From contig JAOAUZ010000002.1 in NCBI GenBank assembly GCA_025464625.1, positions 62,001 through 126,000 on the forward strand: DNA of 64,000 bases, written 5' to 3'. This document shows, piece after piece, positions 1 to 39,853 of the stretch; position 1 is the stretch's first letter; every line of letters starts with the position of its first letter. This DNA is from Rickettsiales bacterium (GTDB taxonomy: Bacteria; Pseudomonadota; Alphaproteobacteria; Rickettsiales; SXRF01). Both the position numbers and the translations under genes were made by a program. Below the pieces are notes generated by a model. The model was not told where the DNA came from, did not search any database, and saw only the letters and a program-made list of their open reading frames with translations.

Positions 1-841
1 GTAGAATTTCTTGAGGTAATGATACGCCAGCCACCTCTTTGTTCCATTTATGCCCGCCTTTTGTAAGTTCCAAAACGCGTATAAAATTTCCTGCTTCACA
101 ATTTGCTGAACGAAGCAAAATATCATCGCTCACTGTTTTTTGTTTTTCTTGCCCACAACGCAAATATTTTTTCCATAAATCTACCGAATCTTCAAACCCC
201 ATATAAGGACGTTTTTGCGTACGAAAGGCACTTCTGTTTTTACTCATGCCACCAGTAAAGGGTATTATCTCGTCATCTTTTGTTTGAATCATAAATAATG
301 AAAATGGGTATTTAGGCATAGCCTGATCGTCAAACACTGCAGAACTCACAACTACAATTCCTTTAATTGCGTGTTGTGTTTCTACCACTGCACGATAAGA
401 AATCATTCCGCCATTGGAATGACCAACGAAGAAAATATTACGTTCATCAATTAAATATTTTTTAGCAATAGAATCAATAGCTGCATCGATATAAGAAATA
501 TCGTCTATTTTATTCTTCGCCGCGTATGCACAGCAATGCTTTGCATTCCATGAATTCAACCTTATCATCCCTGTGCCATTCATAAACGCCACCGCATATC
601 CAGCATTCAGCAGCAAATCATTAAGTTCCGTTGAGTGACGCTGCATCCACGCTGAATTACCACCGCCACCATGAAAAATCATGACCAAAGGCACTGGAAT
701 ATTGGCAGAATTTTCTGGGTAATTAAGAATAAGATCGCGCTCTATATCATCAACCTTAAACGTCAATTCTTCAGCCTTCACTATGGAAGAAAAACCAACA
801 AAGCATGCCATCAAAACCAAAAATAATTTTGTAATACGCAT
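1..841 (-). CDS. Secreted LpqC/PHB-depolymerase-like esterase, 3' end cut by window edge
   Basis: Reading from the ATG at 841 toward position 1 gives about 280 codons with no stop, so the C-terminus lies outside the window. Residues 1-23 look like a signal peptide ending FSSIVKA. The oxyanion-region motif FHGGGGN is near residue 56 and the nucleophile motif GHSNGG near 140 (Ser142). An Asp in QTKDDEIIPF and a His in KGGHKWN could complete the triad. The segment WNAKHCCAYAA near residue 98 is typical of LpqC/feruloyl-esterase-like members of carbohydrate esterase family 1 (COG3509). It probably hydrolyses an ester in the periplasm or outside the cell; the substrate (polyhydroxyalkanoate, feruloyl ester or other) cannot be told. 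It lies 9 bases downstream of rsmD on the same strand. Confidence 0.8.
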   Translation of the reverse strand, partial: MRITKLFLVLMACFVGFSSIVKAEELTFKVDDIERDLILNYPENSANIPVPLVMIFHGGGGNSAWMQRHSTELNDLLLNAGYAVAFMNGTGMIRLNSWNAKHCCAYAAKNKIDDISYIDAAIDSIAKKYLIDERNIFFVGHSNGGMISYRAVVETQHAIKGIVVVSSAVFDDQAMPKYPFSLFMIQTKDDEIIPFTGGMSKNRSAFRTQKRPYMGFEDSVDLWKKYLRCGQEKQKTVSDDILLRSANCEAGNFIRVLELTKGGHKWNKEVAGVSLPQEIL

Positions 842-850
842 GCTAAACTC

Positions 851-1411
851 CTATTTAGTAAGCTGCAAAAGCTCTATTGTTGCACGACCATATTTTCGTT
901 TATCAACAACCTCAAACATTTCTGGAATTTCAATTTCTTCTTTGCTGTCATGTTCAATCACCAGCAAAGCATCAGGAGCAAGCCACTCACCACCGTGCAA
1001 TGCCAGAAGCGTTGGTGGAATCAATTTCTCAAAATAAGGCGGGTCAATAAAAACCAGTGAATATGTTCTACGCGCGCGCCCAAGCTTGGCGGCGTTCATC
1101 TGCAAAAATTCTGCGTTTTCCAATTCATTCATTCTCTCAGCATTATGGCGTGCGCTGGCAATTGCCTCTCTCGAGCTATCAACAAAAGTAATGCTGGCAG
1201 CACCGCGTGACAAGGCCTCCAAACCAAACGCACCTGTGCCACAGAACACATCCAAAACATTTTTACCAACAAAACTATCACCATATTTTCCGTGACTCAA
1301 AATATTAAAAATCGCTTCGCGGGCAAATTCTGATGTTGGTCGAATCGCACCATTAGAATCTTTGAGTAAGTCAATTCGTCTGCCTTTATGTTTTCCAGCA
1401 ATAATTCTCAT
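851..1411 (-). CDS. rsmD: 16S rRNA (guanine966-N2)-methyltransferase RsmD
   Basis: This 186-residue protein has the usual RsmD length. It begins MRIIAGKHKGRRI, as the family does. SAM-binding motif I is DVFCGTGAFGLEALSRGA at residues 54-71, an acidic motif (FVDSS) follows at 76-80, and the catalytic DPPY is at 123-126. The family methylates N2 of G966 of 16S rRNA using S-adenosylmethionine during 30S assembly. It follows an rRNA/tRNA pseudouridine synthase gene on the same strand, a pairing common in alphaproteobacteria, with a 164-base gap that holds a large hairpin. Confidence 0.96.
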   Translation of the reverse strand: MRIIAGKHKGRRIDLLKDSNGAIRPTSEFAREAIFNILSHGKYGDSFVGKNVLDVFCGTGAFGLEALSRGAASITFVDSSREAIASARHNAERMNELENAEFLQMNAAKLGRARRTYSLVFIDPPYFEKLIPPTLLALHGGEWLAPDALLVIEHDSKEEIEIPEMFEVVDKRKYGRATIELLQLTK

Positions 1412-1484
1412 TTTATTACTTCCAATAAGTTATACTCATTTGATTTAAGTTTTCTGTGAATTTATTATAGCAATAAAGCGCGAA

Positions 1485-33292: not shown

Positions 33293-33880
33293 TTACTCAA
33301 TTTTACAAACTTCATCAAAAGCAAATCTAGGGCTGCGTGGGTGTAGTTTTGAGGCATCTCCATAACCCAAATTGCAAATAAAATTGGATTTTATATTTAG
33401 CCCAGCAAAAAATAGCTCGTCAATTTTGGCATTGTCAAAACCAGACATTGGGCCACAATCAAGCCCCAATGCCCGCGCAGCAAGCATAAAATATGCACCT
33501 TGCAGTGAAGAACTACGAAAAGCTGTGGACTCAATTAGTGACTTATTACCTACAAACCAACTGCGTGCATCAGTATGTGGGAATAAAAACGGGAGTTTTT
33601 CGTAAAACTCTATATCATGCCCGATAATCGCGGTTACTGGTGCTGCCATAGTTTTTGCAATGTTGCCTTCAGCAAGTGCTGATTTTAGTTTTTCTTTGGC
33701 AGCTTTGGAGGTAACAAATACTACACGCATCGGCGAACAATTAGCAGAAGTTGCCCCCATTTTGGCAAGATCATAAACCTGTTTAAGTAAATCGTTTGAC
33801 ACTGGCTTATCAAGCCACGCGCTATGGGTGCGAGCATTCCGAAATAATATATCAAGACTTCTATCGTCGAGTGCGCTCAC
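33293..33880 (-). CDS. Nitroreductase-family protein, RutE/HadB-like
   Basis: This 195-residue flavoprotein-like sequence begins [19 protein letters not shown], typical of the RutE (malonic semialdehyde reductase) branch. It continues with [38 protein letters not shown] and [16 protein letters not shown]. It probably binds FMN and uses NAD(P)H to reduce a small carbonyl or enone; the substrate here is not known. No rut genes are present. It overlaps hisE by four bases, so it is co-transcribed with the his genes. Confidence 0.85.
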
Positions 33881-34209
33881 TGGTTTTTTCCTTTTAGTTT
33901 ACGACTGGCTTTTTCGTCTAACCCAGAAATCCCTTCGCGACGTTCTAACTCTGCCATTACTTCACTTACTTTAATATCTCCATCAGCGAGCAACAACAGT
34001 AAATGAAATAACAAATCCGCACTTTCATTAATTACTCCAGCACGGTCCTTTTCCACTGCGGCGATTACAGTCTCCACCGCTTCTTCACCGAGCTTTTGGG
34101 CTATTTTTGCTGTGCCTTGTTTCAGGCGTTTTGCAATATAGGAGGTTTCAGGATCAGCCCCGCGCCGTTCCAAAACCACTTTATATAATCTTTCTAATAC
34201 ATCGCTCAT
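33877..34209 (-). CDS. hisE: Phosphoribosyl-ATP pyrophosphatase
   Basis: This 110-residue MazG-like enzyme removes pyrophosphate from phosphoribosyl-ATP, the second step of histidine synthesis. [21 protein letters not shown] and [15 protein letters not shown] (with the metal-binding Glu and Asp) identify it. It is a stand-alone HisE, not fused to HisI; hisI is not in the window. Confidence 0.95.
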
Positions 34210-34211
34210 GC

Positions 34212-34970
34212 TTATGCTCTTACTGGAATTCCATTTGCTTGCATAGATTTTTTTACCTGCTCAATGCTAAATGTTCCAAAGTGAAAAACTGAAGCAGCCA
34301 GCACCGCATCCGCTTTTCCTTCTGTTACAGCTTGCGCAAAATGCTCCAACGTCCCTATTCCCCCTGAAGCGATTACAGGAACACTAACCGCCTGTGAAAC
34401 CGCGCGAGTTAGCTCCAAATTTATACCTTGCCTTGTGCCATCCCTATCCATTGAGGTGAGGAGTATTTCACCAGCTCCGAGCTGCACCATTTTTTTTGCC
34501 CATTCTACTGCGTCAAGCCCTGTGGCATTGCGCCCACCATGGGTGAATACTTCAAATTTTCCAGTCCCAACCTGCTTAGCGTCTATCGCCACCACAATAC
34601 ATTGCGAGCCAAATTTTGCTGCTGCCTGTGCCACAAATTCAGGATTTTTTACCGCTTCGGTGTTGATAGAGACTTTATCTGCTCCTGCAAGTAGTAAATT
34701 CCGAATATCATCAAGTGTGCGCACACCACCACCAACAGTAAGCGGCATAAAACATTGCTCGGCAACGCGTGAAATTACATCGTATAATATCCCGCGATTA
34801 TCACTGCTTGCGGTTATATCCAAAAAACACAGTTCATCCGCACCCTGCGCATCATAAAGTTTTGCCTGTTCCACAGGGTCGCCAGCGTCAACTAGCTCCA
34901 CAAAATTCACGCCCTTAACCACACGACCATCTTTAACATCTAAACAAGGTATAATACGGGTTTTCAGCAT
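34212..34970 (-). CDS. hisF: Imidazole glycerol phosphate synthase, cyclase subunit
   Basis: This 252-residue TIM-barrel protein starts [20 protein letters not shown] and has [23 protein letters not shown] and [11 protein letters not shown]. The catalytic Asp residues fall in CLDV and SMDRDG. With HisH it converts PRFAR and ammonia to imidazole glycerol phosphate and AICAR. It overlaps hisA by 7 bases. Confidence 0.97.
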
Positions 34971-35683
34971 ATTTTAAGTACTTCCTTAGCATTAATCGCG
35001 CCATCATAAAGTGCGCGACCAATGATAACTCCTTCAATGCCTGAAGTTGCAGCTGCTTTATAGTTTTTTATGTCCTCTATGCTGCTAACACCACCAGAGG
35101 CAATAACAGGCGTGGTGATTGACTGCGCTAACGTAACAGTTTCTACAACATTTGCGCCCTGCATTGCTCCATCACGGTTAATATCCGTGTAAATAATGGC
35201 AGCAACGCCAGCATCTTCAAAACGTTTAGCAAGTTCTGTCGCCTGCATATCAGAAACATCCGCCCAACCAGAGACTGCAACTTTTCCACCAACAGCATCA
35301 ATGCCAACAGCGATTTGCCCTGGGAAAATGCGACAGGCTTCTTTAACCAGAACAGGATTTTTAAGAGCAGCAGTACCCAAAATAACCCGCGCGACACCAG
35401 CCGTAATCCATGTGTCAATCATTTCCAATGTGCGGATGCCACCACCAAGCTGCACCTGCATTTTCACCCGCGCTAAAATTGCTTTCACCGCTCCTGCATT
35501 TACAGGTTTTCCTTCAAACGCACCGTTCAAATCCACAATATGCAACCATGAGAATCCGTCATTTTCAAAAGCAGCAGCTTGGTCAGATGGTGAATTATCA
35601 AACACTGTTGCCTTGTCCATGTCACCACGCAACAGGCGAACACAAGCTCCATCTTTAAGATCAATTGCGGGGTATAAAATCAT
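34964..35683 (-). CDS. hisA: Phosphoribosylformimino-AICAR-P isomerase
   Basis: This 239-residue TIM-barrel isomerase starts [20 protein letters not shown] and has [24 protein letters not shown] and [11 protein letters not shown]. The catalytic Asp residues lie in AIDLKDG and TDINRDG. It opens the ribose of ProFAR to give PRFAR for HisH/HisF. It is followed by hisF with a 7-base overlap. Confidence 0.97.
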
Positions 35684-35700
35684 ATCGCTCTCGTAATAAA

Positions 35701-36234
35701 TTAAATTAAAGAAGTAAGTGGATCAACATTTTTGTAATAAAAACGTCCCGCTATCATCTGGGCATTCACCAGCTCATAATAAGGCAGCCTGCCCCATTGC
35801 ACATAGCCGTGATCTTCATAAAGTTTTATGGCTTTTTCTTGTGTTTCACGCACACTAAGTCTTATAAGCGAAAATCCCTGCGCCCGCGCCTCACGTTCTG
35901 CCGATTCTAATAACATCTTTGCCAGACCATGCCCACGCGCCCATGGCGCAACAAAATGCGCTTCCATTGATGCACAAAATGATGAGGTTTCTTTGCTTAA
36001 CCCCGGTTTTACCAATTGAACACTGCCCGCGAGTGAACCATCCACCCGTCCAACGAATAATACACGGTCTGGCACAACCAAAACTCCCCGCCAGTATAAT
36101 TCCAACACGTCAATACCTGGTGGAAGAACCCAGTTAAAACCAATGCCATCACGAATAGCATCTTCAGTAGCGATGCAGAGTTCTTCCAAATCAGCATGAC
36201 GAAATTCAGTTATACGTTCAATACGAGCAGCCAT
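35701..36234 (-). CDS. GNAT-family N-acetyltransferase
   Basis: This 177-residue protein has the GNAT fold, with the acetyl-CoA-binding loop in [15 protein letters not shown] (R-x-x-G-x-A like) and the late strand/helix [23 protein letters not shown]. The acceptor is not known. It sits inside the his operon, one base after hisH and 17 bases before hisA. A GNAT gene in this position is seen in some alphaproteobacterial his operons; a link to histidine is not established. Confidence 0.82.
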
Positions 36235-36235
36235 T

Positions 36236-36850
36236 CTACAACCCTACAAAATTTTCAATTATCCGCAAACCAGTTTTCTGGCTCTTTTCGGGATGGAATT
36301 GTGTACCAAAAATATTATCTTTTCCAACTATCGCGGTAATATCGCCACCATATTCAGTTGTTGCCAGTAGCTGGGAATTATCAGCAAGTTTTGCATGATA
36401 ACTATGCACGAAATAGGCATGTTCACCATCATTTATGCCCATAAGCAGAGGAGAGTTTTGTTTTATCTGTAAATTATTCCAGCCCATATGTGGAATTTTA
36501 AGAGTAGATGAAGTAATAGGTACAACATCACCTGATAACCAGCCCATTCCTTTATGGATTCCGAGTTCATAACCATTTTCGAAAAGCATCTGCATTCCCA
36601 CGCACACACCTAAAAACCATTTCTTATTTTCTATAACCTGCCTGCGTAAATTATCCAGCATATCAGGAATTGCACTAAGCCCTGCCATGCAATCAGCAAA
36701 CGCCCCTACCCCTGGTAAAACTATATGGCTGGCACTATTCAGTGAGCTCACATCGGCACTAACTTTTACATTTGACGAAACCCGCTCAAAAGCCTTCGCC
36801 ACCGAACGTAAATTCCCTGAACCATAATCAATAATAACGATTGATGTCAT
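36236..36850 (-). CDS. hisH: Imidazole glycerol phosphate synthase, glutaminase subunit
   Basis: This 204-residue class I amidotransferase has VIIDYGSGNLRSV, the nucleophile elbow GVCVGMQMLF, MGWNNL, HSYHA and the FGTQFHPEKS motif with the catalytic His and Glu. It releases ammonia from glutamine for HisF. It lies between DUF2628 and the GNAT gene. Confidence 0.97.
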   Translation of the reverse strand: MTSIVIIDYGSGNLRSVAKAFERVSSNVKVSADVSSLNSASHIVLPGVGAFADCMAGLSAIPDMLDNLRRQVIENKKWFLGVCVGMQMLFENGYELGIHKGMGWLSGDVVPITSSTLKIPHMGWNNLQIKQNSPLLMGINDGEHAYFVHSYHAKLADNSQLLATTEYGGDITAIVGKDNIFGTQFHPEKSQKTGLRIIENFVGL

Positions 36851-36856
36851 CAGACC

Positions 36857-37249
36857 CTATACTGCCAACACGCGATCAAAATAACGTTGCTGCGCGCGCA
36901 GAGAATTATCACTTACTACAATATCCGACATGATATAACCACGACGGGAAAGATTTGCGCGCAACCAGTCATTTGCCCAATAGCCAACTACCAAGTTAAA
37001 TGCAACTTGTAATATTGCCACGCTCCTAATATCCAACAATTGCAAATCTTCTGCTGCTCCCAAGAAGCCAATGACTATTACCATCCAAAATGCTACCCGC
37101 CACATACGATGATACAATGCCCATAATACTCCAAAAAAGAATGCAAAAATATTAAATCCCTCACGCACAAAGACAGCACTTTCATTAGCATGAGTTTTTG
37201 AAAAATTAATATGCACAGTGTAAATCTGCGTTCTTGGGAAAAATATCAT
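36857..37249 (-). CDS. DUF2628-type membrane protein of the his operon
   Basis: This 130-residue protein has an aromatic-rich core FVREGFNIFAFFFGVLWALYHRMW and two or three membrane helices (WALYHRMWRVAFWMVIVIGFL and VAILQVAFNLVVGYWA). This pattern is typical of DUF2628, found between hisB and hisH in alphaproteobacteria. Its function is unknown. It overlaps the hisB stop by one base and precedes hisH by 6 bases. Confidence 0.85.
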   Translation of the reverse strand: MIFFPRTQIYTVHINFSKTHANESAVFVREGFNIFAFFFGVLWALYHRMWRVAFWMVIVIGFLGAAEDLQLLDIRSVAILQVAFNLVVGYWANDWLRANLSRRGYIMSDIVVSDNSLRAQQRYFDRVLAV

Positions 37250-37848
37250 TACAAGCTTCCTCCAAGTGTCCCTTTGGTTGACGGTATATCATCGGCTTTG
37301 CGCGGGTCAATTCCTACTGCCACGCGCAGCGATCTCGCCAGTGCCTTATAACATGATTCCACTATGTGATGATTATTCACACCATATTCATTCTGCACAT
37401 GCAAAGTCGCTCCCGCAGCAAAAGCAAATGCCTGAAACCACTCGCGGAATAATTCCGTATCCATATCACCAAGTTTTGGCTTGGAAAATTCAACATTCCA
37501 CACAAAATATGGCCGTCCCGATAAATCAATTGCTACATGCGACAAAGTTTCATCCATAGGGATGGTTGCATTGCCATAGCGCACTATACCTCTACGATCG
37601 CCAAGAGCTTTTGCCACAGCTTCACCAATAGCAATTCCTGTGTCTTCAGTAGTGTGATGAGAATCAATATGTAAATCGCCTTTAGCAACAAGTTTCAAAT
37701 CAATCAGGCTATGGCGTGAAAGCTGCTCCAGCATATGATCTAAAAAACCAATGCCTGTTGATATTTCATATTTCCCCGTGCCATCTAGGTTAAGCTCAAC
37801 GCTCACCTGAGTTTCTTTGGTTTTACGCTCGTGTTTAGAAGTCCGCAT
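37249..37848 (-). CDS. hisB: Imidazoleglycerol-phosphate dehydratase
   Basis: This 199-residue monofunctional HisB has the metal-binding motifs [16 protein letters not shown] and [18 protein letters not shown], plus [16 protein letters not shown]. It dehydrates imidazole glycerol phosphate to imidazole acetol phosphate. It is the first gene of the his cluster here; the [13 protein letters not shown] start matches the family. Its Shine-Dalgarno (gaggga) lies inside the hairpin at 37853-37886. Confidence 0.97.
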
Positions 37849-37852
37849 TAAA

Positions 37853-37886
37853 AAAATCCCTCAAATATTTATATTTGAGGGATTTT
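37853..37886 (-). terminator. Strong hairpin with T-run between barrel gene and hisB
   Basis: Perfect 15-bp arms, 37853-37867 and 37872-37886, close a 4-base loop. On the minus strand the stem is followed by more T, so it looks like a rho-independent terminator for the iron operon (barrel gene stop at 37914). The T-run ends next to the hisB ATG at 37848, and the 3' arm contains the hisB Shine-Dalgarno gaggga. Confidence 0.8.
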
Positions 37887-37913: not shown

Positions 37914-38657
37914 TTACCATTTCACAGGAAACTCGTACTCTATATTAAGTTTAACTGCGTAGTCTTCGGTTGCTTTTGAGATGCCAAACAGCACACCTGC
38001 TTCATACTTAAAGCCATGTCCAAATTTTCCATAAAGAACAGGACCTAAGCGGTGTTTTTGGCTATCATAATCACCAGTATGAGTTATCTCACCAAATTCA
38101 CCATAATACTCCACCCCTGGATTTATAACTGGCAAATAATTATATTTTGCCATCCATTTTATTTCACCTTCAGGATTGGAATTCGAATTACTGCCAACTT
38201 CTTTTTCAAAGCCTATATTTGCCATAGTTGTGAATTTGTTGAAATTTTTAGCAATCAGTAAAAATGCTTCGACTTTGTCGGCATCGCCGTTTGGATGCTT
38301 AAATTCATACGCCACCAAAGCACCAACATCAGCCCAATACTCACCAACTTCAGTCAACTGAAAAATATTCTCTATCTCAGTGGCGGTATATTTATACCCA
38401 CTATTATTTTCTTTTTCCAACTCGCCATATAACGCTGCTTTCCACTGTGAAGTAAAGCCATATTCAACAGCTAATTTATGCTGGCGGAAATTATCTTCTG
38501 ACGTGCGGTCATCAAAATCAAAACGGTTTTTTGATTCTATTTCCAACATTCCTTTTTCCACATAAGGAGAATATACGTTAAGTGCATAAGCATTTGAGCT
38601 TAGAAATAGTGTGCTGGTAGCAACAATAGTATAGAGTGTTTTCTTATTATTTTTCAT
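37914..38657 (-). CDS. Putative outer-membrane beta-barrel of the iron operon
   Basis: This 247-residue protein has a signal peptide (about 1-25, ending SSNAYA) and then alternating hydrophobic/polar strands rich in Tyr, Phe, Gly and Glu. It ends in an aromatic residue (YEFPVKW), as outer-membrane barrels often do. I do not recognise a named family. It overlaps the FTR1 gene by four bases, so it is co-translated and probably acts with the iron permease, perhaps as an outer-membrane channel or iron-responsive porin. Confidence 0.7.
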   Translation of the reverse strand: MKNNKKTLYTIVATSTLFLSSNAYALNVYSPYVEKGMLEIESKNRFDFDDRTSEDNFRQHKLAVEYGFTSQWKAALYGELEKENNSGYKYTATEIENIFQLTEVGEYWADVGALVAYEFKHPNGDADKVEAFLLIAKNFNKFTTMANIGFEKEVGSNSNSNPEGEIKWMAKYNYLPVINPGVEYYGEFGEITHTGDYDSQKHRLGPVLYGKFGHGFKYEAGVLFGISKATEDYAVKLNIEYEFPVKW

Positions 38658-39460
38658 ATTTTTACCTTTTTAGTTAGTTTTAGAAGAGAAAGTATAATTG
38701 CCATAGTAAGTGCATAAAATATCAACTGAATAACACTAGGACGTTCACTATATCCAAGCATCGCATGAAGAATTTTACCCAGCACACTATCTTGTGAAAG
38801 TATCCTGCTGCTATCCCATGTCTGCCCCAAGGCAGGCAGCATATCGGCAGCGTTTAGATAGCCTGCAATTTGTGCAGACATCCCGCAGGCAAGAAGAATA
38901 AGAAGCCAGCCAGTCACCGAAAATAAATGCTTAGAAGAAAGTTTTACCAATCCGAAATAAAGAGCAACACCAATAACGATTGCAATGCCAGCACCAGCAA
39001 TACCTCCTGTCATAATACTAATGACAGATTCCTGCGAACTGCTGATTATACCAGTCATGAACAATACTATTTCCGCTCCTTCCCGCCACATAGCAAGGCT
39101 CACCACCACGGCTAAAGAATAAAGCGGTACATCGCCATCGGAAACGGCTTTGCCCACCTGCTTCATTTTTTGTGCGATAGCGCGACCATGCGACTGCATC
39201 CACACCACCGTCCAGACAATCATAGCAACAGCGACAGATAATATAGCAGCATTGAACAATTCCTGCCCAACCCCCTCCATTGCAGAAGATATGGAATTGG
39301 CAAAAACAGCAACCAATGCAGCACCAACCAAGCCACTACCAATACCAACACCAATCCACAACGCACGACCACTAACGCCGCGTGTAGCAGCCAGAATAAT
39401 GCTTATGATAATGGCAATTTCTAAAAATTCCCGAAAGCAAATGATAAATGATTGAATCAT
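38654..39460 (-). CDS. FTR1-family high-affinity iron permease
   Basis: From the ATG at 39460 the protein has 268 residues and about seven membrane helices. The two Arg-Glu-x-x-Glu motifs of the FTR1/EfeU family are present: CFREFLEIA near residue 10 and WREGAEIVLF near residue 125. These line the iron path through the inner membrane. A longer open frame to 39550 would overlap the upstream gene by about 86 bases and is rejected. The upstream cupredoxin-like gene ends 4 bases before it. Confidence 0.92.
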   Translation of the reverse strand: MIQSFIICFREFLEIAIIISIILAATRGVSGRALWIGVGIGSGLVGAALVAVFANSISSAMEGVGQELFNAAILSVAVAMIVWTVVWMQSHGRAIAQKMKQVGKAVSDGDVPLYSLAVVVSLAMWREGAEIVLFMTGIISSSQESVISIMTGGIAGAGIAIVIGVALYFGLVKLSSKHLFSVTGWLLILLACGMSAQIAGYLNAADMLPALGQTWDSSRILSQDSVLGKILHAMLGYSERPSVIQLIFYALTMAIILSLLKLTKKVKI

Positions 39461-39464
39461 ATTT

Positions 39465-39791
39465 TTATTTAACCACCAGCTTCCCTTGTGCGGTTTTTTC
39501 GTTGAATTCGCCAAAGAATTTATATTCACCAGCATCAAGTGGCCCAACAAACACTACACCTTCAGAATTTCCTGCGATAACTTTTTCACGATTAAAATCG
39601 TGGCTCTCAAATTCTTCTGGTGTTGAGTCCTGATTTTTAATGACCAGCTTCACCTTCTGCCCAGATGGAATTGTAACAGTTGCTGGGTTGAATTTATGGT
39701 CTTTGATCACAATTTCAAAAACAGGTGTTTCTGCTAGAGCTGGTGTAGAAAGTGCAGCTAAAATTGATACTAAAGTAATTATTTTTTTCAT
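39465..39791 (-). CDS. Periplasmic cupredoxin-like protein (EfeO-Cup/FtrB-like)
   Basis: This 108-residue protein has a signal peptide (1-20, ending TPALA) and a single cupredoxin-like domain. NQDSTPEEFESHDFNREKVI and GEYKFFGEFNE are typical of the cupredoxin domain of EfeO and of FtrB-type proteins. No Cys is left in the mature part, so it lacks a classical type 1 copper site; the acidic EEFE and His may bind iron or copper. It probably binds iron in the periplasm before FTR1 transport. ttggag precedes the ATG by about 8 bases. Confidence 0.87.
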   Translation of the reverse strand: MKKIITLVSILAALSTPALAETPVFEIVIKDHKFNPATVTIPSGQKVKLVIKNQDSTPEEFESHDFNREKVIAGNSEGVVFVGPLDAGEYKFFGEFNEKTAQGKLVVK

Positions 39792-39824
39792 TTGTTTTTC
39801 TCCAAGTTGTTTTTCTGATTTTTA

Positions 39825-39853
39825 TTAATAACGCAAATGAGAATCATTCGCAA
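39825..39853 (-). promoter_or_regulatory. Iron operon promoter with overlapping Fur-box-like site
   Basis: On the minus strand, -35 ttgcga (39848-39853), a 17-base spacer and -10 tattaa (39825-39830) lie 34 bases before the ATG. The sequence gcaaatgagaatcattcgc (39833-39851) matches 14 of 19 positions of the classical Fur box and fills the spacer, so iron-loaded Fur would block RNA polymerase. Confidence 0.7.

Follow-up and report, generated by a model that had tools for sequence, protein, structure and literature searches.

A Fur-box-associated FTR1 permease operon with a predicted outer-membrane β-barrel, and permease-barrel fusions in its relatives

General porins are usually named as the route by which free Fe2+ enters Gram-negative cells. 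In Bradyrhizobium a metal-regulated outer-membrane channel, MnoP, is paired with an inner-membrane importer, and in the FbcH cytochrome b/c1 preprotein of the same genus a membrane protein is fused to an exported protein and the internal signal peptide is cut. The described iron systems closest to the locus analyzed here are EfeUOB and the FtrABCD system of Brucella and Bordetella. In Brucella FtrB the proposed iron ligands are E84, E86, and E93, and the proposed copper ligands are D118 and H121 (PMC11966278). The closest described outer-membrane proteins are the COG4313/Phenol_MetA_deg channels. In the COG4313 protein Pput2725, the nearest family relative with a solved structure, the N-terminus plugs the lumen, a role as a classical channel for hydrophilic molecules was judged unlikely, and a hydrophobic cargo has been proposed (PMC4493636).

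The operon studied here lies in the window, the whole 64,000-nucleotide stretch of Rickettsiales DNA that was analyzed, and has the following features.

37850..37886, minus strand: probable intrinsic terminator AAAATCCCTCAAATATAAATATTTGAGGGATTTTTTT at the operon/hisB boundary, read from the sequence
37914..38657, minus strand: OMP, predicted 12-stranded outer-membrane β-barrel with a signal peptide ending NAYA (AlphaFold2; Pfam)
38654..38657, minus strand: ATGA overlap of the FTR1 stop (TGA) and the OMP start (ATG), read from the sequence; the frame is continuous here in relatives
38654..39460, minus strand: FTR1 permease, 268 aa, motifs REFLE and REGAE (Pfam FTR1, E 5.1e-35)
39465..39791, minus strand: CUP, periplasmic cupredoxin of the FtrB/EfeO-N type, signal peptide MKKIITLVSILAALSTPALA (Pfam Cupredoxin_1, E 3.3e-33)
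39825..39853, minus strand: putative promoter TTGCGA-17-TATTAA, a weak 8/12 match read from the sequence, overlapped by the Fur site
39833..39851, no strand assigned: Fur-box-like palindrome GCAAATGAGAATCATTCGC, containing an exact AATGAGAATCATT and overlapping the putative promoter

The three genes are read 5' to 3' as cupredoxin, permease, and barrel. The first-pass annotation of this DNA had their coordinates and tight layout right: four bases separate the CUP stop from the FTR1 ATG, and the permease and barrel genes overlap by ATGA. The flanks are unrelated, with hisB beyond the hairpin terminator and a small lipoprotein-like ORF and citrate synthase upstream. The hairpin ends immediately 5' of the hisB start codon; a terminator scan did not list it, probably because the T run was mostly counted into the stem. 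The hisE/F/A/H/B cluster itself spans positions 33877-37848 (minus strand), with an acetyltransferase-like ORF and a DUF2628 protein amid the his genes.

The permease scored 121.6 bits against PF03239 (cut-off 25.3) and is the only FTR1 copy in the genome. Its best start is the ATG at 39460, and a TTG at 39550 was set aside. Both Arg-Glu-x-x-Glu motifs noticed at first reading, REFLE and REGAE, were confirmed, and R10/E11/E14 and R126/E127/E130 are invariant in the FTR1 alignment. Partner searches covered the whole source genome, which comprises 1.9 Mb in 7 contigs with a rated completeness of 100%. It contained no P19 (PF10634, FtrA), no DyP peroxidase (PF04261, EfeB), no M75 domain (PF09375, EfeO), no FeoB C-terminal domain, and no FtrD-like polyferredoxin, the sole Fer4_5 protein being CcoG. 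One TonB receptor was detected by PF00593, together with one Fur-like and one Zur-like regulator. The lack of P19, FtrD, and DyP/EfeB asserted by the first-pass annotation is therefore borne out genome-wide, and the partners did not turn up elsewhere as one operon. Its wider statement that the usual partners are missing stands for P19, FtrD, M75, and DyP but not for the cupredoxin, which is itself the equivalent of FtrB and of the EfeO N-terminal domain.

The operon resembles EfeUOB in its EfeU-like permease with two REXXE motifs and in a cupredoxin similar to the EfeO N-terminal domain. However, M75 and DyP are lacking, and the permease scored 145.7 against the NCBIfam EfeU equivalog, under the cut-off of 255. 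With FtrABCD it shares an FTR1-type permease (FtrC in that system) and a Cys-free cupredoxin (FtrB) that keeps the three iron-ligand glutamates, but P19/FtrA and FtrD are absent, the FtrB copper ligands are replaced, and an outer-membrane barrel is added. Permease and cupredoxin each belong to a known family, and the operon falls outside the definitions of EfeUOB and FtrABCD that were tested.

The cupredoxin has no Cys residues, as previously noted, and matches the Brucella FtrB structure 8VUK with an E value of 5.2e-14; an FtrB-type cupredoxin thus adjoins the permease. In the numbering of PMC11966278, E84, E86, and E93 are kept, D119 is replaced by Glu, D118 by Gly, and H121 by Asn. Among the 52 relatives that could be read by the motif used (29 could not), 46-48 have Glu at each of the three iron-ligand positions, 42 have Gly at position 118, and 27 have Asn and 24 His at position 121. 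Judged from these residues, the ligand pattern favors an Fe2+-binding role for the cupredoxin over that of a copper ferroxidase. We think it quite unlikely that the substrate is another divalent metal such as Mn2+ or Cu. The presence of a cupredoxin domain would fit such a substrate, as would the copper transporter PcoB among the fold matches of the barrel and the neighbors of a homologous locus on a Hydrogenophaga plasmid, a GDT1-family protein and the Co/Ni exporter DmeF; against it stand the FTR1 family membership with both REXXE motifs, the retention of the three proposed iron ligands with loss of the copper ligands D118 and H121, and the Fur boxes. We infer that the substrate is iron and that it is imported, the cargo most likely being Fe2+.

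The barrel matched Phenol_MetA_deg (PF13557) marginally (E 7.6e-5, 23.3 bits against a cut-off of 22), and this match is accompanied by 12 predicted strands. No PF13557 match was found in the fused relatives scanned (described below), and neither NCBIfam nor PHROGs returned a family for the barrel. An AlphaFold2 model built with 12 relatives in the alignment had 12 strands forming a barrel (pLDDT 82.9, pTM 0.77), so the putative outer-membrane barrel of the first reading did not dissolve into a non-barrel fold. By VIA-align the model was closest to FapF (Z 18.7, rmsd 3.2, 218 residues aligned) and to the COG4313 channel 4rl8 (Z 17.7, rmsd 3.4, 216 aligned), with 6-9% identity to these neighbors. 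Despite the top fold match, a FapF function was not adopted, the identity being 6%. BAM-assembled barrels commonly end in an aromatic residue, and the C-terminal residue is aromatic in 63 of 81 homologous barrels. The inward face of these 81 homologues carries on average 18.6 acidic against 7.9 basic residues per barrel, where facing was deduced from the hydropathy alternation of the strands rather than from coordinates and barrels are polar inside anyway. E39, E41, D49, E96, D110, E183, E240, and E242 are acidic in 82-99% of the homologues.

It is possible, although we hold it doubtful, that the three genes serve iron import while the barrel is no Fe2+ pore and instead admits a chelate or a hydrophobic or amphipathic molecule, as proposed for COG4313. 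The window barrel shares its Pfam family and 12-stranded fold with proteins of the Pput2725 type, and in Pput2725 the lumen is occluded and hydrophilic passage in vivo was judged unlikely (PMC4493636). The window-type barrels differ from these channels, however, in their recurrent linkage and fusion to an iron permease in several gene orders, in a strongly acidic inward face with nearly invariant Glu and Asp residues, and in the Fur boxes upstream. We therefore favor a dedicated Fe2+ channel, similar in outline to the MnoP-type channels, to which it is likened by description and not by sequence.

The 19-base site at 39833-39851 agrees with the E. coli Fur consensus at 14 of 19 positions (p = 0.08 when the 256-base upstream stretch is shuffled). 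No site in the window matched the 19-base consensus with three or fewer mismatches; the 13-base core does have a match in the window, and the exact AATGAGAATCATT occurs once in its 64 kb, inside this site. Since the score alone gives p = 0.08, the case for the site rests on conservation. The same site is kept upstream of the orthologous cupredoxin gene in the related locus L003 and, with one core change, in L034. Across 76 related upstream regions, 43 have Fur-like boxes at p < 0.05 against their own shuffles, where about 4 would be expected, and the best boxes of several relatives reach 17-18 of 19 against the E. coli consensus. The 19-base Fur-box-like site of the first-pass annotation is accordingly real, and a conserved box lies at the putative promoter, supporting, as far as sequence can, Fur control of the operon. 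The promoter itself fared less well: its hexamers are present, overlapped by the Fur site, and the -35 half is conserved in L003 and L034, but the match is weak (8/12) and a promoter scan did not include the 39853-39825 pair among its matches.

A search for the same trio showed that it recurs in many genera across Proteobacteria, but in shuffled orders: cupredoxin-permease-barrel, cupredoxin-barrel-permease, permease-cupredoxin-barrel, and barrel-cupredoxin-permease. In many relatives the permease and barrel occupy one stop-free frame of about 515-550 codons. After removal of duplicates, 78 non-redundant FTR1 loci remained, and the counts that follow are not population frequencies because the barrel itself served in part to select the loci. 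FTR1 and the barrel form a single frame in 35/78; separate genes run permease-then-barrel in 14/78 and barrel-then-permease in 5/78; FTR1 is fused to the cupredoxin in 3/78, all Rhodopila; and the orders FTR1-cupredoxin-barrel and barrel-cupredoxin-FTR1 account for 2/78 and 1/78. The remaining arrangement, with no barrel within the flanks examined, was seen in 18/78, so the barrel is not essential everywhere. A barrel-blind sample of 398 genomes of the phylum included 117 with FTR1, of which 12, mostly from one family, have frames of fused length (≥490 aa). Frames of about 350-380 aa were rejected as further fusions; the ones that were read end with the usual FTR1 tail, and their length is due to upstream stop-to-stop extension.

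Where a fused gene has a named record, the source is a metagenome-assembled genome. Assembly error was rejected as the origin of the fusions, since about 35 non-redundant loci, drawn from many projects and genera, share this design of the junction. In the open-licence papers searched (preprints excluded) we found no description of the barrel partner, of an FTR1-barrel fusion or other polypeptide joining an inner- to an outer-membrane protein, or of a comparable bacterial polyprotein. The fusion of permease and barrel in so many relatives is more surprising than what had been proposed at first, a compact importer under Fur control that includes an outer-membrane protein. That proposal is well supported by the conservation of the trio in many genera, the predicted barrel, and the frequency of upstream Fur boxes; the first reading as a whole is supported in part, given the correction on the cupredoxin and the fusions, which it could not have seen.

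At the joint of the two proteins that share a frame lies a segment with the makings of an internal signal peptide, a feature of the relatives and not of the split window operon. In 37 properly anchored linkers (L106 was excluded for a misplaced anchor) the predicted -1 residue is always Ala, and 31 have Ala-X-Ala, against a background of 11% in 9-residue zones elsewhere in these proteins. The n-region contains 1-5 Lys or Arg residues and the h-region has a mean hydropathy of 1.6-3.1; the linker is otherwise poorly conserved in an alignment of 22 fused proteins. In a model of the fusion from L036, predicted FTR1 helices are followed by a linker of pLDDT < 50 at 266-292 and then by 12 predicted strands; its pTM of 0.46 makes the relative placement of the domains meaningless.

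That the fusion stays uncut, with the barrel tethered to the inner membrane, is highly improbable. The fused frame does exist, but in the L036 model only about 11 residues lie between the predicted cut and the first strand, so a tether left uncut would not reach across the periplasm, and no linker has lost the -1 Ala while the remainder drifts. We also regard it as unlikely that the fused genes make the barrel separately by internal translation initiation, the continuous frame being of no consequence. Many linkers do contain an in-frame ATG, GTG, or TTG, and the ATG of L036 sits where the split genes start. Nevertheless, 4/37 linkers have no such codon in the zone in which a separate signal peptide would need its start, 31/37 have no start with an SD-like sequence there, and ribosomes reading FTR1 would make the fusion anyway, there being no stop. 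Cleavage of the fusion at the linker is the reading we prefer.

In the tree, the window operon and L034 ("Pseudomonadota bacterium KLAP47") are sisters, followed by L035 ("Rickettsiales bacterium F1-140"), all three split, and then by the fused L036, with support of 100/97 or better. The split window operon thus nests beside fused L036 (support 100/99), and the neighboring groups are fused. Most simply, on this tree, the window operon would be a secondary split of a fused gene. At least 8 changes between the fused and other states are needed over the whole tree, in which gain and loss elsewhere are indistinguishable because no root was inferred. In the Rhodopila metagenome-assembled genomes L075, L077, and L080, FTR1 and the cupredoxin share one frame and are joined by an Ala-X-Ala linker, the same linker design with another cargo, which suggests that FTR1 run-on can take in any exported gene that happens to lie downstream. 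In the isolate Vineibacter terrae, the barrel ORF (L071:3839-4675) opens with what is left of an FTR1 N-terminus, MLARLVVVIREVIEAALM, comprising the first helix with REVIE and followed by a signal-peptide-like segment. The remnant matches L059 at 55% over 31 residues (E 7.7e-5, small database), and the ORF apparently derives from an earlier FTR1-barrel fusion by internal deletion.

Overall, we consider it likely that the operon encodes a Fur-repressed iron importer made of an acidic 12-stranded outer-membrane channel, an FtrB-like cupredoxin, and FTR1, that the fused forms are cut by signal peptidase I, and that the window operon was secondarily split. Iron is probably brought through both membranes by the products of three co-transcribed genes. 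At low iron, Fur would leave the promoter and the operon would be derepressed; Fe2+ would cross the outer membrane through the acidic lumen of the dedicated barrel, be bound in the periplasm by the cupredoxin, and be moved across the inner membrane by FTR1. In the fused form, the last FTR1 helix would lead into a short positive stretch, presumably on the cytoplasmic side, and the next hydrophobic segment with its Ala-X-Ala would act as an internal Sec signal peptide. Cleavage by signal peptidase I at Ala-X-Ala would leave the permease in the inner membrane, and the freed barrel would pass into the periplasm for assembly by BAM. We infer the outer-membrane location of the barrel and its conduction of iron, as well as the cleavage, from these features. 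In FbcH both products stay in the inner membrane, whereas here the freed part would reach the outer membrane.

We lean slightly toward the broader view that a widespread two-membrane importer is made as one polyprotein that signal peptidase I cuts into a 1:1 pair in both membranes, and that FTR1 run-on arose more than once, with barrel and cupredoxin as cargo, and was undone by splits as in the window. Should FTR1 indeed work with a dedicated, Fur-linked channel in the outer membrane, the porin view would have to be revised for many environmental Proteobacteria, and the barrel offers a candidate that can be tested. With a natural permease-barrel fusion, one can directly test whether signal peptidase processes bacterial polyproteins and whether two membranes receive their proteins stoichiometrically.

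Barrel homologues also occur with no FTR1 or cupredoxin in the 1.5-kb flanks (L100, L102, L104, L105, L107-L110, L112, L113, and L116). In L009, an FTR1 gene without a barrel of the present family lies beside a 455-aa OprB-type-porin-like ORF on the opposite strand (117-1481, plus strand). On the Hydrogenophaga conjugative plasmid pPBL-H3_B2-1 (L146:3001-6490), FTR1 is followed by a barrel homologue that is broken by a stop and annotated as two hypothetical proteins, and then by the GDT1-family protein and DmeF.
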